Part shown: in pieces, positions 6,155-50,765 of the stretch
How positions within the stretch are numbered: the stretch's first letter is position 1
How the letters are laid out: each line of letters opens with the position of its first letter
DNA from: Astropecten irregularis
Lineage: Eukaryota > Echinodermata > Asteroidea > Paxillosida > Astropectinidae
Direction: 5' to 3'
Assembly: GCA_963971285.1 (NCBI GenBank)
Contig: OZ020261.1
Span: 1,240,001 to 1,304,000 of the forward strand
Length of the DNA stretch: 64,000 bases
Made by a program: the position numbers and the translations under genes
Notes under the pieces: model-generated
Databases searched by the model: none
What the model saw: only the letters and a program-made list of their open reading frames with translations
Told to the model about the DNA's origin: nothing

Positions 6155-6322
6155 CCTTTGAGAAAGATCCTGCTAAGATCGAAACGTCAGGCTCTCCTAA
6201 CTCTGAGCAACCTTTGAGAAAGATCCTGCTAGGATCGAAACATCAGACCCTCCTAACTCTGAGCAGCCTTTGAGAAAGATCCAGCTAGGATCGAAACGTC
6301 AGGCCCTCCTAACTCCAAGCAT
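6155..6322 (+). repeat. Three tandem 56-bp units with a hairpin core (family K)
   Basis: Units start at 6155, 6211 and 6267. Each contains GATCCTGCTAGGATC (a 6-bp stem with a GCT loop) followed by GAAACGTCAGG or a close variant. The layout (stem I GCCT/AGGC, an 8-nt core, hairpin, GAA, a palindromic ACGT, then C) matches the topology of a type I hammerhead ribozyme with a very short stem III. The core bases TTGAGAAA depart from the catalytic consensus, so activity is unlikely. An AT-rich tail with ATTTCAGGTCA follows. Confidence 0.75.
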
Positions 6323-6983: not shown

Positions 6984-7055
6984 GGGCTGGATGGCTCAGT
7001 TGGTAAGAGCACCGATACGGTGTACCGGGGGTCGTTGGTTCGAATCCCGCTCAAG
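6984..7055 (+). repeat. tRNA-derived SINE head
   Basis: A tRNA-like segment with an A-box word (TGGCTCAGTTGGTAAGAG at 6992) and a B box (GGTTCGAATCCC at 7037-7048). It is followed by a non-tRNA tail (CAATGACTTAAAATTAATC) that recurs after the copy at 24051-24125. The acceptor ends do not pair like a functional tRNA, so I call it a SINE and not a tRNA gene. Confidence 0.7.
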
Positions 7056-7129
7056 TCAACTTGTCTTTGTTCATTTTTCAATGACTTAAAATTAATCTAA
7101 TCCGCTTCCCTTGTGGTTATTTGATGACA

Positions 7130-8480: not shown

Positions 8481-9034
8481 GCTGTCCCGAGCACTAACAA
8501 GCTATGTTTATGTCTGTGTAATGAACACTTCTTAAGAAGACCACAATTACTGTTCGAAACGTCGGTTCTAATGATTAATACATAAATATATTTTGAACAA
8601 TAGAAATCTTCACAAAACAGCGTCTATTTGTTGCAATTAGCCTATTTCTTGTTAAAATAAAATTAAGACCTGAAAAAAAAAAACTATTCAGAATTTTTAT
8701 TCAGTCACGACCTCGCCCTGGATCCGTTTCTATTTTTATCCGCAAAACGCTAAATCCGTTACGGCCTACCCGATGACAATTGATGCAAACGGAATGACGT
8801 GAAGGTAACAATGACGGTATACTGCGTCAGAAATAACCCGGAACATCCCGGAACATGTCCACCCGGATCAATCACACGACAGTTCAGGGAAAGGAGCAGG
8901 ATTCGGCATTTACAAATGAGATACCACAAAGCATTTATATCTTTTATTCGTGAACTTGTAAATCCATTTAAACAAATAAGCAGTAGTGTTCTGTGGCGCG
9001 TCGACGTTTGTGATATATTCTGCATATCAGCGGT

Positions 9035-9120
9035 TTTAGTCTCTGAGAAAGATCCTGCTAGGATCGAAACGCGTCAGGCCCTCCTAACTCCAAGCATTTT
9101 ATAAATTTCAGGTCATTTTT
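9035..9120 (+). repeat. Family K solitary unit
   Basis: CTGAGAAA (9043-9050), stem GATCCT/AGGATC (9051-9065), GAA, palindromic ACGCGT (9069-9074), then C and AGGCCC. This copy keeps the C, T, G and A of the hammerhead CUGA word. The downstream tail ATTTCAGGTCATTTTTGGCTG matches other copies, and its inverse appears near 9255-9290. Confidence 0.75.
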
Positions 9121-10017: not shown

Positions 10018-10130
10018 GCCTTTGAGAAAGATCCTGCTAGGATCGAAACGCGTCAGGCCCTCCCAACTCCGAGCATTTGTATATATTTCAGGTAATTTTA
10101 TTTTTGGCTGATGAGCAGTTTGCAGCAGTT
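10018..10130 (+). repeat. Family K unit with tail
   Basis: Same hairpin core with the ACGCGT palindrome, followed by TCCCAACTCCGAGCATTTG and the tail GGCTGATGAGCAGTTTGCAG. Confidence 0.75.
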
Positions 10131-10499
10131 TATTATTTGTATTCATTTATTTTGTAAGCATAAGTTAATAAGGTAGCTTTTTAAGATTGTGTTCAGTTTT
10201 CAAAGCTCGCATATTGAATAGTCTATAGTTAGTTTGATACGCACGCAGCATTTTAATATTTTGCCCCGTACTCGCAAAACTCTGGTGATATGATGGATGG
10301 TGTATCTTTAATCTTCGACTATTTGATGTATGTAACTCGTTGCTGTGGAGATTGACTGCTTGGCGGTGTATCTAACTTCACGAAGCTTTGTTTTGTGTCA
10401 TTTTTACCCATTAAGCCAGGTTTTCCCAAGCTATATCAACCTTGCTCCAGCGCTGTCCCGGGCTTTTTTGCCGCGAAACGGAATTTTTTTCCCTTCCTT

Positions 10500-11534: not shown

Positions 11535-11577
11535 TTGGAGTTAGGAGGGACTGACGCGTTTCGATCCTAGCAGGATC
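11535..11577 (-). repeat. Family K fragment, inverted
   Basis: GTTAGGAGGGACTGACGCG followed by TTTCGATCCTAGCAGGATC is the reverse complement of the family K core. It lies in intron 1 of the ETS gene. Confidence 0.75.
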
Positions 11578-11964
11578 GTTTATAATATTGTTGATTTCTT
11601 TCAAGACCAAGCGATTGACTTTATTTTCGTTTGCCGTAGTATTTCTGTGCCTGGACTCTTTTCTTTCGCTACGTGATATCTGAATTGGTAGCTCGTATTA
11701 TACTTCGTTTTGTATTTGTACTGGATTTGGCTGAGCATAGCTTTGTATTGGATAACTTTGGATAGAAACCTTTCAGTGCATTCTGGATTGAATTTGTCTG
11801 TGGATTTTGGAAGATGATGAAAATAACGTGCTTTGTGCACGGAGATCATTCTATGGTATTGTAACACTTGAAAAGCATTGAGTGGCTGTTTCTACGGTTC
11901 TGAAATATTGTTTTTGGCTACCCTCGTTTTTTTATATGGAGAACATTTGCTATTCAAAGGCAAC

Positions 11965-13345: not shown

Positions 13346-13446
13346 CCCCTGATCATTGCCTTGGTGGCCCATTGTTTTAATACCATTGCTTTAACGTGAT
13401 TGTTAACCTTTCATTGAATCTGAATTTCCTTTGGTTTTCGTTTTAG

Positions 13447-13684
13447 GCGGGATGGCGTTCCCTGACTGGGCCTACAAACCAGAGAGCAGTCCGGGTTCCA
13501 GACAGATCCAGCTCTGGCACTTCATCCTGGAGCTTCTTCAGAAGGAGGAGTTCCGTGACGTCATTGCCTGGCAGGGTGACTACGGAGAGTTCCTCATCAA
13601 GGACCCTGATGAGTTGGCCAGGGTCTGGGGTCTCCGCAAATGCAAGCCCCATATGAACTACGACAAACTCAGCAGAGCGCTCAG
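13447..13684 (+). CDS. ETV3/ERF: ERF/ETV3-like ETS repressor, exon 3 (ETS domain, main part)
   Basis: This exon encodes most of the winged helix-turn-helix DNA-binding domain, residues 63-142. It carries the signature [16 protein letters not shown] that precedes the ETS domain in ERF and ETV3, then [32 protein letters not shown] and [11 protein letters not shown], the GGAA-recognition helix. The acceptor is TTTTCGTTTTAG (ending at 13446) and the donor is AG|GTGAGG at 13685. Two bases left over join exon 4 to complete the Arg of ALR-YYY. ETS-domain factors bind GGA(A/T) sites; ERF and ETV3 act as ERK-regulated transcriptional repressors in the nucleus. The N-terminal position of the domain supports ERF/ETV3 over other ETS classes. 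Confidence 0.95.
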
Positions 13685-13767
13685 GTGAGGGAATGATCAG
13701 GTTGAATGTGGTCCACTGCTAACTTCTCACAAAAAAATGGGTTGAAAATTTCAGAAATCAATAATGA

Positions 13768-13905: not shown

Positions 13906-14059
13906 TACACTTCTTGATGCATCTTGATTCATCTAGTGACTCGCAGTAAACCTTTAATTGGAAGTTTTGAAATCCCAGTGGGAACTCTTGCAGTAATACA
14001 TGTATGCTTTATTATTTACAAGCCTTATTTTTCTTTTTTTTCTCTTTTAACATTGAAAG

Positions 14060-15734
14060 GTATTACTACAACAAGAGGATTCTGCACAAAACTAAAGGGA
14101 AGCGCTTCACGTACAAGTTCAACTTCAGCAAGTTGATCTTGGTGAACTATCCAGGCACGGACATGAAGTACATTCCTCAGTACATGCCGCCCCAGTCAGC
14201 GCCTGCCAATGCCGGTTCCCCGGATGACGTGATCCTGATTGAGGACAACAAGAAGGCCCATGAGCGACCTGGGGTGAGGACACTCAGCGAATCATCTAGT
14301 GACTCACAGGAATCACTGGAAGGCTCCAAGAGACCTCCACCTGTACGGCAGCGCTCACATAGCCTTGGGGATGCCGAGCCTCTTGGAATCTCTCAACCGG
14401 CCATCCGGACTGAGATGCAGCCTCCAGCGATACCAATCGATGCCAGGCCGCCTCCATTCTCACCCAGCTACCCGACTCTTCGCCCGTCCTTTTACTCGCA
14501 CTCCCTTCCTGCGAGCCCCTGCTACCTGTCCCCGATGCCCAGTCCTGCATCAGCCCTCAGCCCAATCTTCACAGCTCCGTGTCCGCGATTCACCTACTCC
14601 CAGGCTGAGATACGTGCCCATCAGGAAGCTCAGTCCCGCCTTGAGCATGACCGGGTGACGAAGCTCCGTGCCCAGACAATGCCCCGGCCATATGTCCTCC
14701 AGCCATCCCCCAGCACAATATGGAGGAATCACACTGAAAATGAAGTCCGGATCAGCAGTTTAAATCTATCCCCTCCAGAAACCCAGCACACTGAGAACGT
14801 GATACGCATTCCAGATCGTCCGTTACAATCTGAACTTTACTTGAGAAGAATGAACGAAAGAAGACAAGCTCAAGCTCAAGCTCAAGCTCAAGCTCAAGCA
14901 CAAGCACAAGCCCAAGCCCAAGCCCAAGCCCAAGCCGCTAATAGTCAGAAACAGATGAATCGGACCTCCCCGCCAGAGATTAAAGCGCCTTGTACAATCA
15001 CCTCACCACCAGATGATGACAACGTCATGAAAGTACCAGAGCCAGTACGGCCATGGCAACATGCATCCCCTCGGAAAGCATCACCTGACCGGAGGTACGT
15101 CGGGATGCGATCTCCGAGACCCTCCCCAGAAAGGACTAGGATGGACACCGAAGGTAACCGCCTAGAGGAGCAGTCCCGGAGCCCTTCAGAAATCGAGAGA
15201 GAAGACTCAAACAACAGGGACAAAGACAAGGGCATCCCAATTAAGCTCCGTGTCAAGCGGAAGTGGAACCGCGACAACTCCCGTCCGCCCTCCTACCAGG
15301 AAGTTGAGCCCAAATCGCCGAAGATCACTCTGGAATCCAAGCCTTCCTCTCGATCGCTTCCCTGCACCCCGACTCAGAAATCAAGTTCTTTAGGAACAGT
15401 CTTCCAGTTTCCCCCAACGGCTGAAGATCCGGATAAAGAGGAATCCATGCGGAGGTTCCGTGATTACTACTTTGACACCGGCCACTCGGGAAGCCCCAGG
15501 CTTCCCGGTCAACCCATGCTAGAGCTCCGCTCTCCTGGTGCCTTCAGTGTCTTCAAAATGGAGCACCCTCACCGGACTCATCTCATGCCGCCCGATCGAG
15601 GTTTCCCTCCAGAGCGAGCCTTGATCAAAGTTGAGAGTGACTCCAGCCTGAGTAAGAAGCGACCATCCGCCTCGGACAGTCCAAAGGAAGTGTGGATCAA
15701 ACGAGAGCCTCAGCCGGAGGCAAGAGATCCGTAG
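14060..15734 (+). CDS. ETV3/ERF: ERF/ETV3-like ETS repressor, exon 4 (end of ETS domain, repressor tail, stop)
   Basis: The acceptor is CATTGAAAG. The exon completes the ETS domain ([20 protein letters not shown], residues 143-162) and then encodes a long disordered tail to a TAG at 15732-15734, giving 699 residues in total. The tail shows a (Gln-Ala)x12 run at residues 411-434. It also shows KLRVKRKWN (537-545), matching the KLRxKRxW block near the C-terminus of vertebrate ERF and ETV3. FQFP (590-593) is an FxFP-type ERK docking motif, and many Ser/Thr-Pro sites could be phosphorylated. Three psi-K-x-E SUMO consensus sites follow: FKME (640-643), IKVE (664-667) and IKRE (688-691). The combination points to a repressor whose activity is switched by ERK and SUMO, as known for ERF and ETV3; this is inferred here. 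The gene is probably pre-duplication relative to the vertebrate pair. Confidence 0.93.
14865..14936 (+). repeat. In-frame (CAAGCN)12 coding repeat
   Basis: Twelve hexamers encode alternating Gln-Ala. The third base of the Ala codon changes in blocks: GCT in the first units, then GCA, then GCC. This pattern suggests expansion in steps by slippage inside a coding exon, so length polymorphism is likely. Confidence 0.9.
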
Positions 15735-21349: not shown

Positions 21350-21820
21350 ATTAAAGGCCATTGGAACAGTGGTAAATCTATGAAGCCGGAGATCCCGGGT
21401 TCGTTTTAAGACCAAGTCCAAACCGATACTTTAAATATATAAGAATTCGCCGAAATTTCCAAGTAGTTGCATTGGCATAGTGGTAATGCTTGGGACTACG
21501 GAGCCGGAGATCCCGGGTTCGAGCCCAGTCAAAGATTAATGTTTTTCGTTTTAAGACTAAGTCCAAACCGATACTTTAAATATATAAGAATTCGCCGACA
21601 TTTTCAAGTAGTTGCATTGGCATAGTGGTAATGCTTGGGACTACGGAACCGGAGATCCCGGGTTCGAACCCCGATGGGATATGGAACTTTTGGTTTTTTA
21701 GACTAAGTCCAAACCGATACTTTAAATATTATGGACGAGAATTTATTATGGGGACCCAGTCCAGGGCAGCGGGTAAGGCTCGGAACCCCGGTGTCGGAGA
21801 TCCCGGGCTCGAGCCCCCAC
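21350..21820 (+). repeat. Tandem tRNA-like SINE units (3 clear copies, 1 degenerate)
   Basis: Repeated blocks begin near 21353, 21468 and 21610, with a weaker one near 21764. The two best copies read GCATTGGCATAGTGGTAATG (A-box region, tRNA-Gly-like) and then GAGATCCCGGGTTCGAGCCC (B box). The spacer GACTAAGTCCAAACCGATAC followed by TTTAAATATATAAG separates units at about 140 bp. Canonical tRNA acceptor and anticodon stems do not form well, so these look like pol III SINE heads and not functional tRNA genes. Confidence 0.75.
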
Positions 21821-24050: not shown

Positions 24051-24175
24051 TATGGCTGGATAGACCAATTGGTATTAAGAGCGCTGGTACGGCATTCCAT
24101 AGGTCGATGGTTCAAATCATGGCCCACAATTTTTCACTTTTCAATGACCTAAAATTATTCCAGTCAGTTTCCCTT
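24051..24175 (+). repeat. tRNA-derived SINE copy
   Basis: TATGGCTGGATAGACCAATTGG is followed by GTCGATGGTTCAAATCATGG and the tail CAATGACCTAAAATTATTCC. It is the same family as the copy at 6984-7120. Confidence 0.65.
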
Positions 24176-24959
24176 GGCGTAAGTTATAGGATAGTTCATA
24201 GTCTGACACCATGGTAAACTGAAACAGGGAAATATGTCGTCCTGTGATCAGTATAGGCAAATGTGACATAGGGATATACAGTAGAAAATCCCACACGACA
24301 CAGAGATTCCATGATCAGTGTATTGTCATGGTTGGTTGACATAAGGACAAATATCCCATAGCAAGTGCACTATTATCCTGGTTAGGTCTGTTTAAACAGG
24401 GCTACCATCGAGAAGGTCCCAGGATGCCAGCCCCAACAAGCTGTCCGGATTGTCGGGTCCATCGCTTGACGAGGTTACGCCCGTAGGCATAGAGCCACGC
24501 CGGTTGTCCGGTCCGCCCCATTACCATCTGCTTGCCGCCCTCCGGTGCCGGATGGCCGGTAGAGGACGTACCAACGTTTGACCAACCTCGTGATAACAAG
24601 ACCATGGCCCTATCCCCGGCAGAGGACCATGATTACTTGCATCTTTAAGACGAGTCACTGCCCTATTGAAACAGCCGCTGGTAAGGCCCACACCCAAAAA
24701 TATCATTTTAGATATGACTAATTGATTCATTTATACAGGGGTGTGAGTGGCCTAAGAAAATAATCAGAAGACACTAAGGAAAAAAATAGCAGGTGTACAA
24801 AAAGCTCAAATTTTGATTTAAAATCTTAACAAAAAATCTGAAATCATATTAAAATCTGAAGTCTAACATCTCTGTAATAAGGTTTATTTAGTCAAAAACT
24901 ACATGTATTCTTCTAGATTTAAAAAAATTATTTTGTTTTATTATTATATTATTATTTTA

Positions 24960-29414: not shown

Positions 29415-29571
29415 AAATAAACTGCTGCAAACTGCTCATCAGCCAAAATGACCTGAAATATATCAAATGCTTAAAGTTAGGAGGGCCTGACGCGTTTCGA
29501 TCCTAGCAGGATCTTTCTCAAAGGCTGAGAAAGATCCTGCTAGGATCGAAACGCGTCAGGCCCTCCTAACT
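29415..29571. repeat. Family K head-to-head pair with a perfect 46-bp inverted repeat
   Basis: The arms at 29475-29520 and 29526-29571 are exact reverse complements, separated by 5 bp (AAGGC). Each arm is a full family K core including GATCCT/AGGATC and the ACGCGT palindrome. The left side also keeps the family tail (CTGCAAACTGCTCATCAGCC). Confidence 0.9.
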
Positions 29572-30986
29572 AAAATGAAGTCTACCAACACCGTAAAGAC
29601 AATTCAGTATTCTGATTGGCCAAATCGGTGATACGTGTTATGTTCTCAACAATGACCATAATTTCCTTCAAATGGCGATCAAAAATTGTACAAATTTAGG
29701 ATTTGTTTTCACAGTGACAACAGAAAATTTAAGAGACAGAAGTCCAGTTTACACCAATAAACTTAGTTTACAAAAAAAACAACTCATAGCTGCATTTTAA
29801 AGACCCGTTTCGTACCATAATTCATTTTCATTTTGTCTCTAATGTTTCATTTACAAAATGTGATCAACCTTTCCTCCAAGAAAATCTTCATTAGTAAATT
29901 TCTGACCAAATTCTGAAGAAAACCAAACCTTGTTGACCATTAACAATTCCCAACTCCTTCGAAAAAAATATGACATCTGTTTATGAAATAGCCTTAATAA
30001 TCAACTTAGTTCAATACGAATTAGCGTTTAATATTCAATGTTCGTACAACGCCTGCGCACATCCTCACATTCTGATTGACTGATCCTTGGTCACATGTTG
30101 TTTGACGTATGCATTGTGCAACCCACAGCGCAAACGCCAATCGCAAAGCTAGACGTTCTATTACATGGTGGATAGTACTTCCATTGCACCGAAAAGTCAG
30201 AAAGTAAGGATTTACTTAAGCTTGGGGAAATTAACTGATGAAATGAAACCATGATATGAAGAAAATCCAAATAGAATGAATTAACTCTTATCCATTAACA
30301 GAAAAACAAAACTATTTCTCTTGGATGAAAATCGTCTGATTTGAGTCTGAGTTATAAAAGTCACTTCATGCAATCTCAAGAAGACAAAATCTACTCGAAA
30401 TTCATAAACACAAAATAATACTATTGACCTTCATCCTTAAAATTTGAAAGTAGAATTAATTTACAGTCAATTATCGTTATTTCTATTGACGGGTATTGTT
30501 GGTGGATGTAGTCTAGTAGAAAAGGACCTAATTTCCGACATCTATGTTGTACTTATTACAGCCAATTAAAAAAATGTGGAAATAAAGGAAAATCGTATTC
30601 TGAATGTCACTGAAAACTTGAATACAACGCTAACTCGTATTATGCACAGAGTCGGAAGTGGGGCCGTTTCACAAAAAAAGTCATATTTTCCGAGGTAATT
30701 AGGAAACTGACGAAGCATTATGCCACAGTGAACAGCCAACAAAGTAGGTTTGCAACACACATATTAACTAGAAGTAATTCTTCTGAAAAGATTTTATCAG
30801 TTTAAGTCTACATTCCCATAAACAATTAGCATTTATTTTAGGTCGTACGTCTCTTTTAATATTCTTTGTATTGTGTGAATTTTTAAGAGGACTATTTTTT
30901 CGAGAGAAGGAAAGCTATTTTGAAGCATATTCCGTAAGGAATGACTACAAAGAACACCTGGTTTGGGCAAGTACTTTTTGAGTATT
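29572..30986. other. Spacer, no gene seen
   Basis: AT-rich, without supported exons or matched repeats. Confidence 0.4.
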
Positions 30987-31035
30987 GGGTCTCCTGATGA
31001 TGACTAGAGCAGGCCTAGTCGAAACGTTGAGACTT
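30987..31035 (+). ncRNA. Hammerhead ribozyme-like motif
   Basis: Stem I is GTCTC (30989-30993) with GAGAC (31029-31033), a perfect 5-bp pairing that two G-T pairs can extend. The core CTGATGA (30994-31000) matches CUGANGA. One extra T follows. Stem II is GACTAG (31002-31007) with CTAGTC (31015-31020). Then come GAA, the palindromic ACGT (31024-31027) as a minimal stem III, and T at the cleavage position. This is the type I layout described for minimal hammerheads of Penelope-like elements and retrozymes, which work as dimers when stem III is this short. The extra base after the core may impair activity. Confidence 0.55.
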
Positions 31036-32412
31036 TACGAGAAGTGCGAAAGTACGAACGATTCTTAAATGGTGTTTCTGCAAACCGATCCACATAGATT
31101 TGTTTTGTTACCGACTACGAGCACTTGAAGGTAAATACAGTAAATGCCATTTTTCCGTGAAACATTAATGGTAGATCTTATCGGCCATCTTGAATAAAAA
31201 AACAACATCGACAGTACAAATTGCCTACAAACTGCCTACAATATCAATGCACTACTTTTGTTGAACAAGTATTTGAACTAGAAAGTTGGCAACAAAACTG
31301 ACTCAAAACTAGGACAAGAATTTGACGCTATAGGAAATTATTGTATCCCCAGATAGCAGACTAAGTAAAATACGGGCCAAATTGTGTTTATCAGTTCTTC
31401 CGTGGAAAACCGATGGTCAAATTTAGCTTGAAGTGAGGAGTGATTTTACTGATGGAAACAAGACTAGTCGTAATGGTCACAGATAAGGCTGCACGTTTAC
31501 CTCCAGGCGCAAAAACGAGCACAAGATAACAAGGTGTACGGGATTACCAACAAACGGAAAGACGGCGTCCCCAGACGGCTGGTAATGGAGTCTAATCGCT
31601 TAACCCAATTCGATCAGCTCAAAGATTTCAGCTGTTAATAAACTGCACTCGAAATTCTTCAGGAAAATGTGACCTACTTCACGAATTACATCAGTTGCTT
31701 GCTTTATCGTGAAGGACAATACATTGTTAGTTTGTTGTGAGTGAAAAACACTCATAATTAAACATGGCGGCAGGTCCAACTAAGAAACTAATAATAATAA
31801 TAAAATGTGCCAAATCTTTCGTATGCTAGATATACGTGTTCAGTATTTTCTTATGGAGGATTCAATTTATGAGATTATTTTTCTTCTTTAGAATATGAAG
31901 CCATTGCCCCTTTAAAGACCCACGGGCTTAGTTCGGTAAATTGATGAGTAGGCTAAGTGTACAATTCAATATACACTTGACCCCTCAGGCTACTGTCAAT
32001 TAGCGCCTTTAAAGTGACAATAGATATGACAACTGCACTTTCAATTGATTTTTCTTTTTAGGCAGATACGTGGAAAGATGTCGAGTGCCGAAAATATTTT
32101 CAGTTTTTAAAGTAGGATGGACTTTGCTTGTTCTTTGGACAAAGCTGTGTGTAGTGGCCACCTTGGCAATTTGCCAACCTGCTTAAAGCCGTCGCATTAG
32201 TGCTTAAGATGTCTGGTAAGTAGCAAGCTTAGGCCTAATACTGAGAAACGTGAGTCTGAGCTGACATTGTGGGATAATGTTTTGTGTCCATGAGAAATAT
32301 ACTTTACAGTGTTTGATAAGTTCTGTCCAACTTGGAGTACGTAAGTACCAACAATAGAACAGGTCATTCAAAATGCAGCTATTGCACAACAATGTAAATG
32401 ACAATCATGTCA
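31036..32412. other. Spacer, no gene seen
   Basis: AT-rich with no supported exon. An (AAT)n run lies near 31790. Confidence 0.4.
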
Positions 32413-40860: not shown

Positions 40861-40988
40861 ATGTGCACTCCGTCCACGTCGGTGAAGGGCAAGCCTAATT
40901 TGCATATTATCTATCTCCCGACCAAAATAATTCATATTCATAATTAATTGCGGTACCTGCCGCGATATTGGATTTGATTCACCAGCTA

Positions 40989-41053
40989 GCTTGGTGGCCT
41001 AGTGGTATGGCATCTGCACAAGTAAGCAGGTCGTGGGTTCGATTCCCACCTGA
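40989..41053 (+). repeat. tRNA-like sequence (possible tRNA-derived SINE)
   Basis: TTGGTGGCCTAGTGGTATGG (A box) is followed by GTCGTGGGTTCGATTCCCACC (T-arm and B box, with a well-paired GTGGG/CCCAC T stem). The 5' acceptor strand does not pair well with the 3' end, so I do not call a functional tRNA, though this is the best T-arm in the window. Confidence 0.5.
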
Positions 41054-41369
41054 GACAGCACATAATTGCTTTCAACAAGCATGACTGAGTATACAGTGAC
41101 TCATCCACGTTGGTGAAAGGCAAGCCTAATTTGCAGACAAAGACAATGTTAGAAAGATTTGAATTTTAACCCTAACCCTTCTCCATACCACAATACACCA
41201 CAGTGTAGTTTATGATCCAGAATCAGCAGCAACAAAGACAAGGTTAGAAAGTTTTGAACTTTAATCATTCCTGTATTTGGTAACCAGTGCCTTTTTGAGC
41301 AAAACGTTTGGCCAACGGGTGCAAAGCAAATTCTTTTTTGTGCTACGGCAAGATGGGTCTGGCTTTTAC

Positions 41370-42020: not shown

Positions 42021-42165
42021 AACATGTTTTGCCAGGAGTGAAAAGTCACGCTTGCCGTAAATTTTTGAAAGTGACATGCTGAAACTGCTAGGCTGTCTTC
42101 TAATAAGCAACAAAACCTGATAGAGAAAGATTTTACTTAATTTCTGTTATATACCACCCACACTC

Positions 42166-43757
42166 ACTGTGCAGTATTCCTATGGCACATTCTATGGACT
42201 TGGACCAAGTTGGGCCATCAAGCCCTATATAAAGTTACAGTGCCTGGGCTCTACAGTCCTGTGTCCTTCAAAATACCACACTGTGCAGTATCCCTATGGC
42301 ACATTCTATGGACTTGGTCCAAGTTGGGTCATCAAGCCCCCATATAAAGTTACAGTGCCTGGGCTCTACAGTCCTGTATCCTTCAAAATACCACACTGTG
42401 CAGTATCCCTATGGTACATTCTATGGACTTGGACCAAGTTGGGCCATCAAGCCCACATATAAAGTTACAGTGCCTGGGCTCTACAGTCTTGTGTCCTTCA
42501 AAATACCACACTGTGCAGTATCCCTATGGTACATTCTATGGACTTGGACCAAGTTGGGCCATCAAGCCCCCATATAAAGTTACAGTGCCTGGGCTCTACA
42601 GTCCTGTATCCTTCAAAATACCACACTGTGCAGTATCCCTATGGTACATTCTATGGACTTGGACCAAGTTGGGCCATCAAGCCCACATATAAAGTTACAG
42701 TGCCTGGGCTCTACAGTCTTGTGTCCTTCAAAATACCACACTGTGCAGTATCCCTATGGCACATTCTATGGACTTGGACCAAGTTGGGCCATCAAGCCCC
42801 CATATAAAGTTACAGTGCCTGGGCTCTACAGTCCTGTATCCTTCAAAATACCACACTGTGCAGTATCCCTATGGCACATTCTATGGACTTGGACCAAGTT
42901 GGGCCATCAAGCCCCCATATAAAGTTACAGTGCCTGGGCTCTACAGTCCTGTATCCTTCAAAATACCACACTGTGCAGTATCCCTATGGCACATTCTATG
43001 GACTTGGACCAAGTTGGGCCATCAAGCCCCCATATAAAGTTACAGTGCCTGGGCTCTACAGTCCTGTATCCTTCAAAATACCACACTGTGCAGTATCCCT
43101 ATGGCACATTCTATGGACTTGGACCAAGTTGGGCCATCAAGCCCCATATAAAGTTACAGTGCCTGGGCTCTACAGTCCTGTATCCTTCAAAATACCACAC
43201 TGTGCAGTATTCCTATGGCACATTCTATGGACTTGGACCAAGTTGGGCCATCAAGCCCCCATATAAAGTTACAGTGCCTGGGCTCTACAGTCCTGTATCC
43301 TTCAAAATACCACACTGTGCAGTATTCCTATGGCACATTCTATGGACTTGGACCAAGTTGGGTCATCAAGCCCCCATATAAAGTTACAGTGCCTGGGCTC
43401 TACAGTCCTGTATCCTTCAAAATACCACACTGTGCAGTATTCCTATGGCACATTCTATGGACTTGGACCAAGTTGGGTCATCAAGCCCCCATATAAAGTT
43501 ACAGTGCCTGGGCTCTACAGTCCTGTATCCTTCAAAATACCACACTGTGCAGTATTCCTATGGCACATTCTATGGACTTGGACCAAGTTGGGCCATCAAG
43601 CCCCCATATAAAGTTACAGTGCCTGGGCTCTACAGTCCTGTATCCTTCAAAATACCACACTGTGCAGTATTCCTATGGCACATTCTATGGACTTGGTCCA
43701 AGTTGGGCCATCAAGCCCCATGCAAAGTTGTGCCTGAGTTCTACAGTCCTGTGTCCA
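42166..43757. repeat. 115-bp tandem repeat array (14 units)
   Basis: Units begin at 42166, 42280, 42395, 42510, 42625, 42740, 42855, 42970, 43085, 43199, 43314, 43429, 43544 and 43659. The period is 115 bp, with two units of 114. Each contains ACTGTGCAGTAT, a TATAAAG word and CTGGGCTCTACAGTC. Units 2-5 alternate between two variants (CCCCCATAT with TGTATCC, CCCACATAT with TGTGTCC), a 230-bp higher-order pattern. The last unit is diverged. The overlapping 93-131-codon frames are read-through, because 115 is not a multiple of three and the frames merely repeat. The array is intronic to the C2CD2L-like gene. Confidence 0.95.
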
Positions 43758-43870
43758 AAATGACTCGAGTGGGCCATGAACCTGCGACCCCTGGAATACC
43801 ATACCGGTGCTCTACCAACTGAGCTATCCAGTTGTTTGTTGGCGGTGTCCCAAATTGTAATTCATCTTTG
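43758..43870 (-). repeat. tRNA-derived SINE, inverted
   Basis: The minus strand reads CTGGATAGCTCAGTTGGTAG, AGCACCGGTATGG and GTCGCAGGTTCATGGCCCAC, then a tail. It directly adjoins the last unit of the 115-bp array. Confidence 0.75.
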
Positions 43871-47291: not shown

Positions 47292-47411
47292 CTGTGGTAA
47301 GCTCCAGCTTAGAATGATCTGGTGCCTGGATGCCACAAACTTGAGTGTATTTTAATGAAATGAAGTCAGAGTACTAGACATTATATCTAAATTTCTGTAA
47401 CTGCACAAATC

Positions 47412-47590
47412 CTACATGTGCAGTATCCATATGGCACATTCATTGGACTTGTACAAGTTGGGCCATCAAGCCCCACTGCACAGTGCCTAGTCTCTACAGT
47501 CCTATATCCTACAAAATACATTTGGACTGCTGTATGCAGTATCCCAATGACACATTCTTTAGACTTGGACAGTTGCTAAGCAACAAAAAT
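47412..47590. repeat. Isolated relic of the 115-bp repeat (about 1.5 units)
   Basis: TGTGCAGTATCCATATGGCAC, AAGTTGGGCCATCAAGCCCC and CAGTGCCTAGTCTCTACAGTCC match the array unit at 42166-43757 in order, with about 15-20 percent visible divergence. It lies 3.7 kb away in the same intron. Confidence 0.85.
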
Positions 47591-50419: not shown

Positions 50420-50599
50420 CATTTGATCTTGCCTACCCGCCCCAACATCCCTTTGTCCCTTTTCCCCTGACCTACTTGTCCATCCCTCTCTTCTCCTGGT
50501 GGTTTCCTAGCCCTGTTGCATGCTTTCCCTGTTTCCCTGGTCACTCTGTCCCCCTTTGTTCTGATCTTTACTTGAATGTTCTTGTTTTCTTGTCAATAG
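50420..50599 (+). repeat. Pyrimidine-rich arm, paralogue of 5940-6154
   Basis: TGATCTTGCCTACC, TTGCATGCTTTCCCTG and CCTGGTCACTCTGTCCCC appear in the same order as at 5956-6080. Confidence 0.75.
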
Positions 50600-50765
50600 C
50601 CTTTGAGAAAGATCCTGCTAGGATGGAAACGTCAGGCCCTCCTAACTCCGAGCAGCCTTTGAGAAAGATCCTACTAGGATCGAAACATCAGACCCTCTTA
50701 ACTCTGAGCAGCCTTTGAAGAAGATCCTGCTAGGATCAAATGTCACACCCTCCTAAATCCAAGCA
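50600..50765 (+). repeat. Three tandem 56-bp family K units
   Basis: Units start at 50600, 50656 and 50712, the same period and number as at 6155-6322. The third unit is the most decayed (GGATCAAATGTCACACC). Matching unit count, period and upstream arm indicate that the two loci copied as one element. Confidence 0.8.

Follow-up and report, generated by a model that had tools for sequence, protein, structure and literature searches.

Short dispersed repeats headed by a predicted minimal type I hammerhead in the genome of the sea star Astropecten irregularis

Minimal type I hammerheads are known from Penelope-like elements and from Terminons (PMC7761336 and PMC6466107, in the parts consulted, citing Cervera and de la Pena 2014 and Lunse, Weinberg and Breaker 2017); the first of these sources, in the same parts, calls the in vivo activity and the role of the Penelope type "still a mystery". 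The Penelope elements of Adineta vaga, according to the sections of PMC3846280 used here, have an optional 31-bp tail and duplications of 8-10 bp; some of their pseudo-LTRs carry a 5' palindrome, and pseudo-LTRs also occur inverted or solo. For the Anolis element PAc, reverse transcription is initiated internally and an optional tail of 30-40 bp occurs, and in the assay of that study the hammerhead of the Penelope element cut only when protein was added (PMC11167929). A second group, the metazoan non-LTR retrozymes, has RNAs of about 170-400 nt and a ribozyme that is efficient as a monomer in most invertebrates; in one coral the type I motifs number more than 6000 and fall into 16 families (PMC7229834, in excerpt).

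The window analysed is a 64,000-nucleotide stretch of Astropecten irregularis DNA (assembly GCA_963971285.1, contig OZ020261.1, positions 1,240,001 to 1,304,000). Direct reading of its plus strand finds, at 30987-31035, a conserved hammerhead core together with stems I and II and, in the place of stem III, the palindrome ACGT. An earlier note on this DNA, made from its letters, had described a 5-bp stem I, CTGATGA, a 6-bp stem II with a 7-nt loop, GAA, ACGT and a cleavage-site base; each was located on the plus strand, and the motif is confirmed to exist as first described. The 5' strand of stem I occupies 30987-30993 and its 3' strand 31029-31035, GTCTC (30989-30993) forming Watson-Crick pairs with GAGAC (31029-31033) and 30987-30988 adding two outermost G.T pairs. 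The core, CTGATGA (C3-A9), lies at 30994-31000. Stem II is GACTAG/CTAGTC at 31002-31007/31015-31020, with its 7-nt loop at 31008-31014; GAA (G12-A14) follows at 31021-31023, and then ACGT at 31024-31027, for which pairing is possible only between two copies. The T at 31028 holds position 17, and cleavage is predicted after it, a position assigned by hammerhead numbering. Scored for the core, the window copy has 11 of 11 core positions and a permitted base at 17 (C3 U4 G5 A6 N7 G8 A9/G12 A13 A14/A15.1-U16.1/H17), the numbering used for this count coming in part from PMC3088659. Of the two features that define a minimal dimer-type hammerhead, the very short palindromic stem III is present as ACGT, and tandem copies are present elsewhere in the genome. 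A fold of this minimal kind with a palindromic stem III is indeed the one that the literature ties to Penelope-like elements, as the earlier note had stated.

A start codon within the hammerhead was considered and rejected. The sequence CTGATGATG places an ATG at 31000-31002, 26 nt upstream of the predicted cut site, and PAc likewise has an ATG 26 nt ahead of its cut site (PMC11167929); in copies with a 6-nt loop, however, stem II brings a TAG into frame, and G often replaces the T of that ATG, as it does in many copies. From the same ATG to the 3' end of copy L011B is 111 nt, which resembles the PAc start site, but the distance varies between subfamilies, and it was not counted for that reason and because the start codon had been rejected.

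A repeat unit of 109 bp (30988-31096, plus strand), its limits given by the ends of genome alignments, begins with the motif; it joins the hammerhead-like hairpin to a 3' leader that is conserved when copies are compared (31036-31096) and ends CCACATA. Some genome copies continue for about 35 nt after CCACATA, a segment not found in the window copy, and a 17-bp stretch present in both copies at locus L011 is missing from it as well; the longer copies read measure 123 and 145 bp. Sampled stretches of the genome (475.7 Mb, 168 contigs) contained additional copies, and the genome was searched with window positions 30900-31120, for which 40 of 1480 candidates were scored, giving 52 matches, and with an L011 copy, for which 40 of 1589 candidates were scored, giving 57. 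Among the 39 main places that the first search found besides the window, 36 start at query positions 86-93 (window 30985-30992) and 37 end at 194-200 (window 31093-31099); for the 39 main places of the second search besides the query itself, the counts are 36 starting at 69-77 and 35 ending at 195-199. Since alignments in both searches stop at stem I and at CCACATA, the ends of the unit are sharp in most scored copies. The exact hairpin string from CTGATGA through GTTG, with a 6-nt loop and any extra letter, occurs 326 times forward and 330 times in reverse, a total of 656 that counts this loop form only and so omits the window copy with its 7-nt loop, while the reversed-pattern control gives 0 + 0. 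The loop of stem II is 6 nt long in 28 of the 29 other aligned copies and 5 nt in one. The motif thus belongs to a dispersed, transposed-looking repeat, which agrees with the retroelement origin suggested in the earlier note. Viral contigs gave one pattern match (L001), which to the eye resembles a chance occurrence in GC-rich microbial DNA, and a phage collection gave eight records with matches of just 18-22 nt at E 3-10.

Copies are found singly, in tandem and head to head. Locus L021 has identical tandem hairpins 81 nt apart, tandem copies lie at C10:1513108-1513369, and C1:3251205-3251945 is an array in 163-bp steps, known from coordinates only. Head-to-head copies with a partial inverted partner occur at L013, L016, L021, L026, L028 and L032. 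By a count of rows over the 80 main places of both searches, an opposite-strand partner is close by at 20 and a same-strand partner at 5. The searches of the window yielded this one copy of the family and no other, and the window copy is therefore without a tandem partner for dimer cleavage within one transcript.

The earlier note had listed one base between the core and stem II as the only visible fault of the window copy. This base, a T at 31001, is instead a feature of the family whose letter is free. Stem II directly on A9, as a type I hammerhead would have it, is seen in none of the 30 aligned copies, all of which have one base inserted (T in 18, G in 11, C in 1), and the exact hairpin string lacking the base occurs 0 times genome-wide against 656 with it. 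A hand count of 100 of those 656 listed gave G in 51, T in 44, C in 3 and A in 2. The surrounding core is well kept: C3, U4, G5, A6, G8 and A9 are each retained in 28-30 of the 30 copies, with G12 changed to A in L011B and L030. On the 5' strand of stem I, 49 of 210 cells depart from the majority letter, some copies being truncated or changed there. An extra base at the junction of A9 and stem II could impair the fold.

How readily would such a motif arise by chance? All descriptors were composed after the motif was known, a circumstance that favours a chance hammerhead-like hairpin in an unrelated short repeat. The strict descriptor (exact CTGANGA, 0-1 extra base, stems I and II of at least 4 bp, GAAACGTH) matches once in the window and 0 times in 1000 dinucleotide shuffles of it; with any four bases replacing ACGT, the shuffles give 16 matches. 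A much looser descriptor has three matches in the window, two of them belonging to a second family described below, against 306 in the 1000 shuffles. A second strict descriptor, in which a U3-A8 core is also allowed and a palindromic stem III is required, finds six matches in 254 kb, five of them in the window and one in L017, a sampled stretch, whereas 60 shuffled sets of that size yield 0. Folding gives a z of about -2.2 for the window copy, with 4 of 200 shuffles equally good, and z values of -4.0 for L011B and -0.2 for L011A, the latter not better than shuffles. When the window copy adopts its most stable fold, some of the core is paired with the 3' side, as a chance hairpin might have it.

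The Rfam covariance search that the earlier note had proposed also speaks on the side of chance. Rfam hammerhead families give no match at the gathering threshold over the window, and none at E<=10 for 451 or 57 bases at the motif or for loci L021, L023 and L027. (Matches of L021 to MIR2630 and other microRNA families, all under their gathering scores, presumably reflect its inverted repeats.) Two outcomes had been named in advance as counting against a ribozyme: no covariance-model match, and copies that fail to preserve stem pairing. The first was obtained and the second was not, as stems are kept in 85.4% of pair cells among the 30 aligned copies. The alignment takes in 30 of 33 places (29 distinct), L016:5465-5515 on the minus strand, L026:297-347 on the plus strand and L032:224-274 on the minus strand having been left out beforehand as rearranged or half copies.

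Evidence of another kind comes from the second family in the window, which is unrelated to the first and satisfies the same descriptor. It lies at 6155-6315, 50598-50765, 9043-9089, 10018-10142, 29475-29571 and 11542-11595, as a 56-bp minisatellite and single copies, with a head-to-head palindrome at 29475-29571. The layout is mostly TTGAGAA (CTGAGAA at 9043), an extra A in most copies, GATCCTGCTAGGATC in the pattern GATCC..GGATC, then GAA and a palindrome, which by copy is ACGT, ACGCGT or, once, ATGCAT (L017); other copies have non-palindromic changes such as ACAT. The stems are unrelated to those of the first family, whereas the layout and the one-base insertion are identical. U3-A8 replaces C3-G8 in 21 of 26 copies, an alignment made up of 24 fuzzy matches and two window copies overlooked by a non-overlapping scan, and the consulted part of PMC3088659 reports that change in natural hammerheads. 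An exact 34-nt form of this family occurs 281 + 219 times genome-wide (500), with 0 + 0 for the reversed control, and forms arrays with steps of 56 and 60 bp. That two families differ in their stems yet share one layout is, as far as comparison of sequences goes, the best evidence that points to hammerhead heritage over a chance hairpin. With this recurrence and the absence of strict matches from 1000 shuffled windows and from 60 shuffled 254-kb sets, chance is already disfavoured, and we consider it very improbable.

Other features of the window may be recorded here. A possible third, decayed relative, AAGAAGACCACAATTACTGTTCGAAACGTC, lies at 8556. At 42165-43756 a 115-bp unit is repeated in tandem 13.9 times with 97% matches, and a related diverged stretch lies at 47386-47575. 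Rfam finds two tRNA matches, at 6985-7058 and 40988-41057; the first resembles 43761-43870 and 24054-24176, a likeness that points to tRNA-derived repeats. A 145-bp tandem repeat at 21400-21729 has a unit that is partly tRNA-like by eye. Open frames at 13407-13685 and 13971-15731 read like an ETS-domain protein, putatively ERF/ETV3-like.

The ends of the units bear on how they were copied. We compared 26 copies with a 145-nt reference taken from L030, a locus whose copy is among the 26; a match was kept if it began no later than base 12 of the reference and extended at least to base 95. Seventeen begin at the first base of the reference; the 3' ends fall at 106-108 in 12 copies, at 111-116 in six and at 141-145, where the reference itself was cut, in eight. 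At the L021 junctions, a shorter 3' point is joined to the GGTCTC of the usual 5' end. Flanking direct repeats of the kind left by target duplication score a mean of 5.19 over the 26 copies, against 4.20 (sd 0.19) in permuted sets, and 0 of 300 permutations scored as high; the signal is one of averages, with a score of at least 8 in three of 26 copies and just a 5-base match at the window copy. This similarity of flanks is as target-primed insertion would leave it. At L016:5350-5600 and L016:5800-6050 a common flank, AAAGTATGATA.TACCTTTA, meets both units at or within about 2 bases of the predicted cleavage position.

These ends and arrangements invite comparison with the Penelope pseudo-LTRs of PMC3846280 (in the sections used) and PMC11167929, with which the units share a 5' palindrome, an optional 3' tail of 31-40 bp, inverted copies, short target duplications and solo occurrence. 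The combination of an optional 30-40-bp 3' tail with inverted partial copies, as in Penelope, is found here in eight of 26 copies reaching 141-145 and in six loci with inverted copies. Unlike the Adineta pseudo-LTRs named in those sections, which are 193-218 bp long, the units read here are 109-145 bp, solo, and shown with no matching autonomous element. The resemblances would appear to be ones of anatomy and not of shared sequence.

A retrozyme in the strict sense would account differently for such copies: tandem units would be transcribed and self-cleaved, and the circularised product would be the intermediate of transposition. The 163-bp-step array fits the 150-450-bp range of metazoan tandem type I hammerhead repeats given in the excerpt of PMC7229834, and the units are like the non-LTR retrozymes described there in being short, with one type I hammerhead each and some of them in tandem. 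They differ from those retrozymes in lacking a usable stem III as monomers and in having tandem rows beside only five of 80 main places. Most single insertions, moreover, begin with the outer base of stem I or close to it and not at the predicted cleavage site, and the 3' ends are more variable than the 5' end, while a circle offers nothing that would fix the 5' end at GGTCTC. We therefore regard a retrozyme cycle as unlikely.

A further possibility is that the hammerhead is dead: the extra base would have ended catalysis, and the hairpin would have been kept as a palindrome serving template switching or the self-priming of DNA synthesis. The extra base is family-wide, as this requires, and the opposite-strand partners beside a quarter of the main places form an arrangement that PMC3846280, in the sections used, ascribes to palindrome self-priming. 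The absence of covariation above shuffles agrees with it as well. The earlier note had looked to compensatory changes in stems I and II, and none appeared beyond shuffles in either family, with two pairs showing double changes against 1.3 in shuffles for the first family and three against 2.9 for the second. The 20 sampled loci were chosen as best matches to the window copy, which biases them towards similarity; the stems may survive only through the youth of the copies, and since copies that are young or drifting neutrally would keep them anyway, stem conservation is no proof of selection. A plain hairpin, on the other hand, needs neither a core nor a GAA-palindrome, yet both recur in two families with unrelated stems, and the extra place departs from the majority letter in 12 of 30 copies where the 11 core positions do so in just 10 of 330 cells. 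On balance, catalytic death with a retained palindrome is a credible but doubtful account. What stands of the first reading of this locus is thus the fold, the dispersed repeat and the kept stems; the extra base is corrected from a fault to a family feature, and the covariance models and compensatory changes lend no support.

Pfam gives no match above cut-off in the window between 28.5 and 33.5 kb, the one DUF543 match, at E 0.12, lying below it. Among sampled stretches the domain search covered the element's strand of L011, with no match at E<=0.5, and inspection by eye of the open frames of 140 aa or more in the sampled 10-kb stretches revealed none that looked like Penelope. The genome does have 60 GIY-YIG matches (150 of 158 candidates scored), many with equal scores and in open frames of up to 954 aa, which we take to be Penelope-like elements. 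Two of these, G000:C17:11034007 and C17:11037274, share a strand and are separated by 3.27 kb; the second belongs to a 921-aa open frame, and the pair may be tandem Penelope-like elements. For the 80 main hammerhead places of both searches, compared after exclusion of 29 secondary rows, just one lies less than 5 kb from any of the 60 GIY-YIG places, at 3.1 kb and on the opposite strand; up to 20 kb there is one further case, 9.3 kb away on the same strand. The reverse transcriptase linked to a GIY-YIG frame that marks a Penelope element was thus found neither in the window at 28.5-33.5 kb nor on the element's strand of L011, and the 80 main places include just that one case within 5 kb. With these few neighbours and the Pfam results, no autonomous partner was tied to the unit; solo units would be expected to show the same lack of a linked reading frame.

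The reading that we favour, if by a modest lean, is that the motif is a predicted ribozyme, a minimal type I hammerhead-like motif of the dimer type that heads a short non-autonomous retroposed unit. In a transcript with two or more units, the ACGU palindromes would pair mutually into a four-base stem III, and the dimer of units would, judging from hammerhead chemistry, cleave after U17. In the L021 tandem, the lowest computed energy is -36.0 kcal/mol for a fold with dimer pairs, -38.1 with monomer pairs as two separate hairpins, and -40.3 for the free minimum; the nested double hammerhead, less stable than both in these computed energies, is feasible as a modelled fold. A Penelope-like reverse transcriptase, acting in trans, would start at CCACATA or about 35 nt downstream, these being two internal sites, and template jumping by that enzyme would yield two 3' ends, tandem arrays and head-to-head copies. 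Internal start with template jumping agrees with a 5' end that hardly varies, with two preferred 3' ends, with the junctions at L021 and with the head-to-head copies. The solitary window copy would then most likely be an inert relic of such an insertion.

The closest described relatives of this predicted ribozyme are the minimal hammerheads of Penelope-like elements and Terminons. As presented in the parts of PMC7761336 and PMC6466107 consulted, these share with the present motifs the type I layout, the near lack of stem III, a palindrome suited to dimers, tandem occurrence and many dispersed copies outside coding elements; the present motifs differ in the extra base after A9 throughout and in having no Penelope reading frame tied to the copies seen here. 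The first family is a new family of dispersed minimal type I hammerhead-like motifs in this sense, and we claim no novelty for the insertion after A9. In the literature surveyed, no title or abstract opening names a short interspersed element built from a hammerhead of this type. More tentatively, the units may represent a class of ultra-short retroposed elements, of about 109-163 bp, that consist of little beyond a hammerhead and an internal start for reverse transcription, are served in trans by Penelope-like enzymes, and have a core that tolerates or even needs a free base between A9 and stem II.

The family has exact hairpin copies by the hundred, ends sharply, forms tandem arrays and carries its core insertion throughout, and it lends itself to direct tests of dimer cutting, of the inserted base and of the unit ends. 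Its design recurs in this genome in a second, unrelated family. If the proposal is true, the many "dispersed minimal hammerheads" found in animals would be intact mobile elements and not debris, and many "ribozyme motifs" in animal genomes would be accounted for as a single kind of mobile DNA.
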